From a virus: DNA of 31,225 nt. The notes beneath the pieces are model-generated. The model did no database searches, was not told where the DNA came from, and was given only the letters and a program-made list of their open reading frames with translations. Of the stretch, positions 28,242 through 31,225 are shown piece by piece. The stretch is taken from IMG/VR virus record IMGVR_UViG_3300020463_000081, positions 1-31,225 of that record, one strand, 5' to 3'. Position 1 is the stretch's first letter, and every line of letters begins with the position of its first letter. A program made the translations under genes and the position numbers.

Positions 28242-28949
28242 ATGGCACTACCAGTACTGAATGACCAACCAAAATATGAATTAAATATCCCTTCTACCGG
28301 CCAAACCGTTCGATACAGACCATATCTTGTGAGAGAAGAAAAAGTTTTAATGTTAGCTATGGAATCACAAGATCCAAGGCATATGTTTTCAGCTATTCTT
28401 GATACTATAAAGGCATGTATTGTAGATGAAAATATTAAATGGGATGAACTAGCGATTTTTGATGTTGAATATATGTTTATTATTATCAGATCAAAGTCTG
28501 TTGGAGAGTCAGCAAAACTGAATTTTAAATGTTCAGAATGTGAAGAACCAAATGAGTTATCGGTTGACTTGACTGATATTAGTCCAAAAATGCCTGATAT
28601 TACAGGCGAAATAAAATTAACTGAGGACATTTCAATTCAGATGCAATGGCCTTCTTATCATAGTATGAGTAGAGCTACAGAGGAAGAAATAAGTGAAACT
28701 GAAATGACGATGGTGATGATTGGTAATTGTATTAAATATGTTAATACTGACACTGATCAAATTATTGTAAAAGATGAACCACAACAATCGATCAATAATT
28801 TTCTTGAATCATTAAGTACATCTCAATTTGAATTGATTAAAGAATATACTGATCAAATGCCACAGATAGTAAAAAATATTGAATATGAATGCAGTGAATG
28901 TTCGCACCACAACAAAGTTAAATTACAAGGAATGTCTGATTTTTTTTAG
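28242..28949 (+). CDS. 26: gp26-family tail protein (zero-frame product, putative chaperone G)
   Basis: The 235-residue protein matches the T4 base plate (gp26, PF12322-type) family, with IPSTGQTVRYRPYLVREEKVL-like opening, ILDTIKACI, FDVEYMFIIIRSKSVGE, and two CxxC pairs (Cys97/Cys100 and Cys217/Cys220) that could bind one zinc. T4 gp26 (208 residues) has a similar CxxC pair and acts in hub assembly. The ribosome site GAGGT stands 8 bases before the ATG, so translation should be strong. It ends Phe-Phe-stop on a run of eight T, the probable frameshift site, and a longer -1 product follows. The position before the tape measure gene matches that of the tail assembly chaperones G and GT of other phages. 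Confidence 0.8.
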   Translation: MALPVLNDQPKYELNIPSTGQTVRYRPYLVREEKVLMLAMESQDPRHMFSAILDTIKACIVDENIKWDELAIFDVEYMFIIIRSKSVGESAKLNFKCSECEEPNELSVDLTDISPKMPDITGEIKLTEDISIQMQWPSYHSMSRATEEEISETEMTMVMIGNCIKYVNTDTDQIIVKDEPQQSINNFLESLSTSQFELIKEYTDQMPQIVKNIEYECSECSHHNKVKLQGMSDFF

Positions 28950-29143
28950 TATGCCTCTCTCATGAAAATCTTCTTAATTACTATAAAAGTAATTTCAGGA
29001 TGATGCAGGATCACAATTATTCGTTAACAGAGTTAGAGAATATGATACCGTGGGAAAGAGAAATTTATATGACTATGTTGATTGAACATTTAAAAGAAGA
29101 AGAACAAAGACACAAAGACCAAGCACAGAAGAATAATTTTTAG
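28242..29143 (+). CDS. gp26 -1 frameshift fusion (putative GT-type chaperone, 300 aa)
   Basis: If ribosomes slip back one base on the T-run at 28940-28946, translation goes on for 65 codons to a TAG at 29141-29143, giving about 300 residues. The extension reads LVCLSHENLLNYYKSNF, then SLTELENMIPWEREIYMTML and a Lys/Glu-rich helical end. It is helical, charged and coherent, as expected of a real protein. The -1 frame has a TGA at 28937-28939 just before the slippery site, so it opens exactly there. Its first ATG comes only at 29000, after about 18 coherent codons. This is how the T part of GT chaperones is encoded, and it explains the whole 200-base stretch to the tape measure gene. The GT part would hold the tape measure protein during tail assembly. 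Confidence 0.75.
28940..28946 (+). promoter_or_regulatory. Programmed -1 frameshift site (T TTT TTT)
   Basis: The sequence is GAT TTT TTT TAG in the gp26 frame. T TTT TTT is a perfect X XXY YYZ heptamer for two Phe tRNAs, and the zero-frame stop codon follows directly, which would pause the ribosome on the site. A 7-bp hairpin (28976-28982 with 28988-28994, 5-base loop) lies 29 bases on. It is AT-rich, weak and rather distant, so it may not matter. Confidence 0.75.
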
Positions 29144-29154
29144 GAAGATCAACC

Positions 29155-31225
29155 ATGGCAGTAACTACATTAAATGACCTAGCCGAATCCCTACGAAGCG
29201 ATAATGATGCGCAACTTGCAGCTACTGTGCGGCAGAGTATACATATATCAAATCTTGTGGAGCAAAATGCATCTTTAAATGCATTCTTAAGAGCTGGGGT
29301 TGCTGCAGAAGACGCTGAAAGAAGAGCAGCTGCTGCACGACGAGTAGAAGAAGATAGAGAAGCTTCTGCCGCATCGGCTGCAGTAAGAACTTCAGAATCA
29401 TCTTCAGAATCATCAGTATCCGGCTCAGGATCAGGTCCGGGATTTTTTGGTAAGTTACTGACAATGGGCCCTCTTGGAAAAATGATTAAAGCCGTTGGAT
29501 CAGTACTTGCGACTGCAAAAAAACTTGGAGGACTCTTTTTAAAAGGCGGCATATTTGGTGCTGTTATATATGGAGTTTATCAAGTATTTAAAGATATTGG
29601 TGAAAATGAAAAATTTAAAGCCACGATTGCATCTCTTAAAAAATCGTGGGAATCTATTAAAACATCTTGGAATGAAATAGTAGAGTTATTTGCTGATCCT
29701 CAAGAAGGTTCGGTAATTTCAAGAATTAAAAGTGCAATTTCCGGTGTAATGGATTGGGTTGCATCATTTGGAGTTAGCTGGGAAGACATAAGATGCGGCA
29801 TACAAGATGTCGCTCTTTTTATAGCTGATAATGTGGTTGGAGGAGTTGCGCTCGCGCTTGAAGGCGTTAAGAATTTTATGAAAGATCCAGTTGCTACATG
29901 GAATAGATGGACAGCTGGAATTCAAGCTGGATGGGACAATGCTATGACTTTGCTTGATGGAGCTTGGACAACTTTTAAATGTTTCTTTACCGATGATATT
30001 CCGGAATGGTTTGCAACACAGAAAACAAGATTTGATGCATGGGTTACAGGTGTTGGAGAAGCTTTTACAAAAAAGTGGGAAGCGTTTTCTGGATTCTTTA
30101 CTGAAACAATACCGGACTGGTTTACACTTCAAAAAATAAAATTTGATGCATGGGTCTTTGGGGTTGGAGAAGCTTTCACAAAAAAGTGGGAGGCGTTTTC
30201 TGGATTCTTTACTGAAACAATACCGGGCTGGTTTAGTGCTCGTAAAGAAGAATTTGACATTTGGCTTGTTGATACTAAAAAAGCTTTTACAGATGCATGG
30301 GCAAATTTTAAAAAATTCTTCTTAGAAGATATTCCAGGCATGATTTCAGGATGGTGGGATGGCGTTAAAGGGTCGGACCTTTTTTCTGAGGTTAAATATT
30401 ATTGGGATGAGATATATAAATTTATGACTGTAGATATACCAGAAACAATTAGTCTTTGGTATATAAAAGCGTCTAATGCCGGTGAATTTATAATGGATTT
30501 TTTAAAATCATCATGGGACAATGTTGTATGCTTCTTTACAAAAGATATTCCTAAAGTAATAGATACGTGGGTTAATAATGTATTTGCAGTTAAAGATAGT
30601 TTTATGGATTTTTTAAAATCATCATGGGACAATGTGGTATGCTTCTTTACAAAAGATATTCCTGAAGTAGTAGATAAATGGGTTGGTAAGGTAATTAAAG
30701 TTAAAGATAATTTTATGAACGGCATTGCCAATGCATGGACTGCTGTCACAACATTTTTTACTGAAACAATACCTACAACTATAAAAGAATGGATAGTTCC
30801 AGATTTTGATTTAATGGGCAATATCACTGCAAAAGTTACTGATATGCTAACTATGATTTTTGATCTTATTCCAAGCATGGAAGATATTAAAAACAGTCTT
30901 ATTAGTCAAGTAGGCAAATTAGGCACTGTTGGTCAGTCAGTATTAGAATTTTTTGGCGTTGGCGGATCTGATATCAAACCAGGTAATAGAGGATATGATC
31001 CTTCGCGAGTCCAAACATCCGACTTAAGATTTCTTGGTGAAGAGGGCGGACCCACAAATTTTGAAAATATGCGTAATTTTGTCAAGAATAACGGTAAAAA
31101 TCCGGCTCTTTTAAAAAAGTCTGAAGTATCGGAGCTAATAAGAGCAGCCGAAGCTGAGGTAGAAGCCAAAAAAATGGTGGACGTGGTAGGTTTTCCAACT
31201 AATACTGTGATTGGATCTGTTGGTG
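29155..31225 (+). CDS. Tail tape measure protein, 3' end outside the window
   Basis: The frame is open from the ATG at 29155 to the right edge, 690 codons. The ribosome site AGGA at 29143-29146 overlaps the end of the frameshift extension. The N-terminus is helical with an Ala/Arg/Glu stretch and a Ser/Gly linker (about residues 55-98). A hydrophobic segment follows at about 122-149 (GGLFLKGGIFGAVIYGVYQV). Residues about 265-560 consist of a 37-residue repeat with Trp, Phe-Phe-Thr and Ile-Pro at set places. Length, helical repeats, hydrophobic segment and position after the chaperone pair are those of tape measure proteins, which span the tube, fix its length and leave before the DNA. T4 uses gp29 (590 residues) here; clear identity to gp29 is not visible. 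The sequence past residue 560 shows no known domain. Confidence 0.8.
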   Translation, partial: MAVTTLNDLAESLRSDNDAQLAATVRQSIHISNLVEQNASLNAFLRAGVAAEDAERRAAAARRVEEDREASAASAAVRTSESSSESSVSGSGSGPGFFGKLLTMGPLGKMIKAVGSVLATAKKLGGLFLKGGIFGAVIYGVYQVFKDIGENEKFKATIASLKKSWESIKTSWNEIVELFADPQEGSVISRIKSAISGVMDWVASFGVSWEDIRCGIQDVALFIADNVVGGVALALEGVKNFMKDPVATWNRWTAGIQAGWDNAMTLLDGAWTTFKCFFTDDIPEWFATQKTRFDAWVTGVGEAFTKKWEAFSGFFTETIPDWFTLQKIKFDAWVFGVGEAFTKKWEAFSGFFTETIPGWFSARKEEFDIWLVDTKKAFTDAWANFKKFFLEDIPGMISGWWDGVKGSDLFSEVKYYWDEIYKFMTVDIPETISLWYIKASNAGEFIMDFLKSSWDNVVCFFTKDIPKVIDTWVNNVFAVKDSFMDFLKSSWDNVVCFFTKDIPEVVDKWVGKVIKVKDNFMNGIANAWTAVTTFFTETIPTTIKEWIVPDFDLMGNITAKVTDMLTMIFDLIPSMEDIKNSLISQVGKLGTVGQSVLEFFGVGGSDIKPGNRGYDPSRVQTSDLRFLGEEGGPTNFENMRNFVKNNGKNPALLKKSEVSELIRAAEAEVEAKKMVDVVGFPTNTVIGSVG
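29950..30810 (+). repeat. 37-residue (111-bp) repeats in the tape measure gene
   Basis: Ile-Pro pairs occur at Ile282, 319, 356, 393, 428, 465, 502 and 539. Every step is 37 residues except one of 35. A typical unit has Trp, Phe, Phe-Phe-Thr, acidic or Glu-Thr, Ile-Pro, then Trp and Lys/Asp. At the DNA level two neighbouring pairs are almost identical at an offset of 111 bases: about 30029-30120 with 30140-30231, and about 30493-30552 with 30604-30663. The others have diverged, so there were old and recent duplications. Confidence 0.9.

Follow-up and report, generated by a model that had tools for sequence, protein, structure and literature searches.

Vladimirov and colleagues reportedly found frameshifting to be conserved in several groups of T4-like phages, with T4 itself said to use genes 26 and 51. 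The tail assembly chaperone (TAC) genes of T4-like phages were identified by Vladimirov, Gautam and Davidson (Virology 2022, 566:9-15), as cited in PMC10274946 and PMC12846349. According to the statements that refer to this work, some T4-like phages do not frameshift but carry two genes, one short and one longer and fused (PMC10274946), and poly-T -1 frameshift signals are present in the TAC-N genes of T4-like phages (PMC12846349). The G-T frameshift has also been described as conserved in long-tailed phages 'except T4' (Atkins et al. 2016, PMC5009743). Among other phage families, the TAC locus of the Vandenendeviridae and Andersonviridae (phage Adele, PMC12846349) resembles the locus studied here in layout: a conserved T-rich -1 motif (GTTTTT) likewise ends TAC-N, and the -1 frame is likewise open up to the tape measure gene.

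In this study, we analyzed a stretch of 31,225 bases from one virus record (hereafter the window), which very probably contains a tail assembly chaperone gene from which a marine T4-like phage makes two products by a -1 slip on T_TTT_TTT. The scheme and, reportedly, the gene family (gp26/gp51) are the same as for the chaperones of Vladimirov et al. (2022), and the mechanism is no different as far as testable, whereas the window represents another marine lineage with its own sequence. Because this arrangement was described for T4-like phages as early as 2022, the window adds a well-supported example rather than a discovery, and the gain over that publication lies in breadth, statistics and correct annotation. 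In this way gp26 and gp51, classical T4 hub genes of long-unclear role, are placed in the common tail-chaperone scheme. The locus also follows the plan of lambda G/GT, where ribosomes shift by -1 close to the end of the short gene, a C-terminal domain is thereby fused on, and the tape measure gene lies downstream. However, lambda uses another protein family and another slippery heptamer, and the likeness seen in this analysis is one of scheme, with no similarity of sequence and no significant one of fold.

Anatomy of the junction and the predicted products

All features discussed here lie on the + strand. The short-form gene (28242..28949), a putative TAC-N or G-like chaperone gene of the gp26 family, encodes 235 amino acids and ends with the codons GAT TTT TTT TAG. 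It matched PF12322 ('T4 bacteriophage base plate protein', E=3.5e-55, over the curated cut-off) and phrog_150 ('baseplate hub', E=6.9e-58), and hhalign comparison of the profile of the gp26-gene family with T4 gp26 gave 99.4%. The candidate slippery heptamer T_TTT_TTT is located in frame at 28940..28946, within a run of eight Ts (28940-28947), and is followed directly by the zero-frame stop TAG (28947..28949), exactly as the initial annotation had described. No other T_TTT_TTN stands in frame in any + strand ORF of the window that encodes 150 amino acids or more. The -1-frame TGA claimed to precede the heptamer was found directly 5' of it (28937..28939), and thus a start inside gene 26 cannot supply the extension. 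Past the heptamer, the -1 frame reads FFLVCLSHENLL...NNF* up to the TAG at 29141-29143. The full reading of this extension (28946..29143; 65 codons plus stop) is FFLVCLSHENLLNYYKSNFRMMQDHNYSLTELENMIPWEREIYMTMLIEHLKEEEQRHKDQAQKNNF, and the predicted fusion has 235+65 = 300 amino acids.

The extension, a TAC-C or T-like domain that resembles gp51, matched phrog_634 ('baseplate hub assembly catalyst', gp51) with E=5e-28. A second match, to the C-terminus of phrog_150 (E=2.3e-6), shows that some relatives carry the extension in the same chain. A tape measure-like gene had been claimed shortly after the extension, and its ATG at 29155 is indeed separated from the extension stop by only 11 bases. 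This gene (29155..31224), the presumed client of the chaperone, runs off the window and matched phrog_1272 ('tail length tape measure protein', E=1.6e-13), and the neighbourhood consists of T4-like baseplate and tail genes.

From this anatomy we infer the following course of events, including the slip itself and its low rate. Most ribosomes would read gene 26 to the TAG and release the 235-residue short form, whereas a minority would slip by -1 on T_TTT_TTT, with two Phe-tRNAs re-pairing one base back, and read 65 more codons to give a long form of 300 residues that ends in a helical domain of the gp51 type. If lambda gpG/gpGT is taken as the model, the short form would coat the product of the adjoining tape measure gene, and the rarer long form would link it to the growing tail tube through its extra domain. 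In T4, the same two products come from separate genes, 26 (short) and 51 (long). The proposal of the initial annotation that a gp26-family gene forms a G/GT-type pair is thus supported by the anatomy, by conservation in 109 of 110 relatives, by constraint on the extension and by its homology to gp51, with slippage, the short:long ratio and chaperone function as presumed parts of the scheme.

Conservation of the site and constraint on the extension

Relatives were gathered from viral contigs and annotated phages. The extension was matched by tblastn in 602 phage records, in many of which this domain is either missing from the annotation or entered as a short gene of its own. A T-rich candidate site was present near the junction in 199 of the 200 loci with an extension match, the lone locus without it (L109, phage JSE) being a T4-type in-frame gp51. 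Clustering of the loci at 90% nucleotide identity resulted in 112 groups, comprising 109 with the frameshift layout, two in-frame T4-type gp51 loci (L104 and L105) and L116. T_TTT_TTN, the zero-frame stop and the -1 extension were kept together in 109 of 110 non-redundant relatives, the window included, which bears out the joint conservation that had been predicted. In all 109 relatives the zero-frame stop lay 0-12 nt past the heptamer and the extension was open for 57-69 codons in the -1 frame, which usually closed 0-60 nt upstream of the heptamer. The last base of the heptamer was C in 68, T in 35, A in 4 and G in 2. The hosts covered include those of cyanophages and of Pelagibacter, Vibrio, Aeromonas (among them Chrysonvirus), Rhizobium, Sinorhizobium, Caulobacter, Stenotrophomonas and Pseudoalteromonas phages; the Rhizobium site is T_TTT_TTG and the Pseudoalteromonas site T_TTT_TTA. 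Searches with the Vibrio and Sinorhizobium extensions added few new loci. The exception, L116 (Synechococcus phage S-SCSM1, 2986-3183), carries T_TTT_TTC in frame with gp26, but its extension lies in another frame; its sequence looks one base short, reflecting either a sequencing error or a real exception.

An in-frame heptamer was found at the junction in 109 of 109 relatives vs 10 of 23,576 codon positions in the gene bodies, and its position is therefore not a matter of chance. A different reading is that the genomes are AT-rich and the T run merely encodes a conserved Asp/Ser-Phe-Phe protein motif, frameshifting being incidental. Some site-less T4-type gp26 proteins do keep FF or F near the C-terminus (EFFELL), and the other six Phe codons of the window gene are all TTT. 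However, Phe-Phe pairs elsewhere in the same genes were slippery in only 3 of 87 cases, and T4 (GAG TTC TTT) and JSE (AGT TTC CTT) encode theirs without a heptamer. In addition, Phe codon usage in these genes is 70% TTT, whereas at the site the first Phe codon is always TTT and the second is free and mostly TTC (68 TTC, 36 TTT), as an X_XXY_YYZ site would predict. Given the usage of each gene, the joint probability of TTT as first codon was about 10^-22, with shared ancestry ignored. TTC-rich genomes still place TTT first: in DLP6 (L112) all 11 other Phe codons are TTC and yet the site is AAT TTT TTC, and phiN3 (11 of 13 other Phe codons TTC) and VH7D (7 of 8) still carry T_TTT_TTY. The motif reading also leaves the conserved and constrained -1-frame extension without a reason. 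Thus, by its codon pattern, the conserved site goes beyond a mere Phe-Phe motif, and we regard an incidental role of frameshifting as barely credible.

Stuttering of RNA polymerase on the T run, rather than slippage of the ribosome, is another conceivable source of the long form, and the eight Ts of the window would be suited to it. On the other hand, 68 of the 109 relatives have only six Ts followed by C, and TTTTTTA and TTTTTTG also occur. Moreover, the run is in register with the X_XXY_YYZ frame, which is needed for ribosomal but not for transcriptional slippage. Transcriptional slippage therefore seems very improbable to us, and a ribosomal -1 slip remains the preferred explanation.

The extension is under purifying selection, with a median dN/dS of 0.115 (333 pairs) vs 0.29 for the zero-frame gene. 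Past the junction in the 109 relatives, the other two frames soon end: a stop comes within 0-2 codons in the zero frame and after a median of 5 codons in the +1 frame. Nevertheless, most database records annotate the extension apart, as 'baseplate hub assembly catalyst', and ribosomes might translate it as a gene in its own right (gp51), either from a dedicated start or by reinitiating once gp26 has been terminated. Such a dedicated start is rejected for the window, whose extension has its first ATGs at codons 20 and 21, both without a Shine-Dalgarno (SD) motif, in agreement with the claim that no usable early start exists. Among the 109 relatives, none had an ATG with SD within the first 10 extension codons, and one had any start with SD there. 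Furthermore, annotated starts vary, and in syn9 and HTVC008M the CDS on record leaves out about the first 20 codons of the conserved domain. A separate gene would also leave unexplained the conserved T_TTT_TTN and the residues FFxxxLSH that precede any start, and in T4-type gp51 the extension domain forms one chain with a gp26-like N-domain.

In favor of reinitiation, 11 of the 109 relatives, the window not among them, have an ATG in the extension frame that shares bases with the zero-frame stop (TAATG/TGATG), so that reinitiation is possible there. These junctions (L102, L103, L107, L108, L110, L111, L115, L198, L200, L020 and L050) belong to Vibrio, Rhizobium, Caulobacter, Sinorhizobium and Pseudoalteromonas phages and a few marine contigs. 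We consider it unlikely, if worth mentioning, that they give a third product, a free gp51-type domain, by termination-reinitiation beside the frameshifted fusion; such a domain could be a step toward the separate gene 51 of T4. As a general account of the extension, a separate gene is still less probable, and production of the extension by -1 frameshifting is favored.

Relation to T4 gp26 and gp51

The initial annotation had linked the gp26 family to the common chaperone scheme while reserving judgement on T4 itself, and our comparison carries this link further. First, T4 gp26 and gp51 both matched PF12322 (E=8.8e-64 and 3.9e-52, respectively), the same family as the window gene, and their short and long forms correspond to those predicted here. 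Of the two, gp51 alone runs through the extension domain in frame (phrog_150 positions 13-280 of 282), and it also matched phrog_634 (E=1.2e-23). Second, an extension profile built from frameshifting phages only, without gp51, was aligned by hhalign to the C-terminus of in-frame gp51 (96.1%, E=3.3e-9). Judging from these profile matches, the extension shares ancestry with the domain that ends T4 gp51, and T4 gp26 is to be read as the short form and gp51 as an in-frame long form, from two genes.

T4 differs from the window in that its genes are separate and divergently transcribed (gene 26, 208 amino acids, - strand; gene 51, 249 amino acids, + strand) and in that gene 26 ends without a slippery site. 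Indeed, such a site was absent from the ends of the four T4-type gp26 genes inspected (T4, 44RR, Aes508 and JSE), the corresponding codons being GAG TTC TTT GAG in T4 and AGT TTC CTT in JSE. Finally, a tree built from the N-domain that all three types share placed frameshifted proteins, T4-type gp26 and T4-type gp51 each on one side of a branch (98/93, 91/97 and 100/100), as would be expected if one two-product gene had been replaced once by two one-product genes. The direction of this replacement, from the two-product gene to two genes, is probable rather than given by the tree, whose root is not fixed.

Among the Straboviridae, the frameshift layout persists in Schizotequatrovirus and Chrysonvirus phages. 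This fits the remarks of Sullivan et al. (2010) that Aeh1 is without gp51 and that cyanophage gp51 has only about 20% of the length of T4 gp51; the cyanophage protein would be short because the missing part is gp26, joined to it by the frameshift. A third paralogue, T4 gp28, was considered and rejected: T4 gp26 gave a one-way weak match to phrog_1140 (gp28 family, E=9e-4), and hhalign with the family profile was unsupportive. The gene in question is gene 28 of L001 (6349-6882).

Structure, possible stimulators and neighbouring features

AlphaFold2 predicted the window short form confidently, with a mean pLDDT of 92.4, and in the likewise confident model of an in-frame gp51 the extension appeared as a helical C-terminal domain (mean pLDDT 89.6). 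Relatives of the family among solved structures were none convincing by sequence search and none significant by fold search, in which the HK97 tail assembly chaperone 2ob9 appeared at rank 6 (E=0.34, probability 0.28). A fold search of a viral library retrieved baseplate hub and hub-assembly proteins of other phages. It is therefore gene position, the short/long scheme and T4 genetics (PMC3004832) that speak for the proposed chaperone role, not the fold. That source classes both T4 gp26 and gp51 as hub assembly chaperones and lists gp51 as missing from the particle.

With regard to stimulators of the slip, no RNA structure was detected downstream of the window heptamer (z ~0). The relatives showed a weak mean signal at +6 (z -1.27 vs about -0.7 to 0 in most nearby windows), which was nearly equalled at +200 (z -1.25), and a conserved downstream structure was rejected as a stimulator. 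An SD-like 4-mer was present within 22 nt upstream of the heptamer in 99 of the 109 relatives, and upstream anti-SD pairing was modestly stronger, at -5.6 vs -4.9 kcal/mol in synonymous shuffles (p=5e-7, with ancestry ignored). For the window this pairing was unremarkable, as 28% of its shuffles pair as well. Thus, an upstream SD-like stimulator is a possibility in the relatives, and the window offers a persuasive case for neither type. A strong stimulator is not always needed for slippage at U-rich heptamers.

Several other features of these loci were observed. The short form (28242-28949) contains two CxxC pairs, one CSEC near residue 97 and another near the C-terminus, and both sit in predicted beta hairpins that might be zinc-ribbon-like. 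Six loci of several non-cyanobacterial phages (L107, L108, L110, L111, L112 and L113) have an extra small ORF of about 80-150 amino acids between the extension and the tape measure gene. Within the tape-measure-like gene of the window, tandem repeats of 111 bp (37 amino acids) are found at 30001-30291 and 30493-30717, with about two copies each and 77-89% matching, and variation in repeat number possibly affects tail length.
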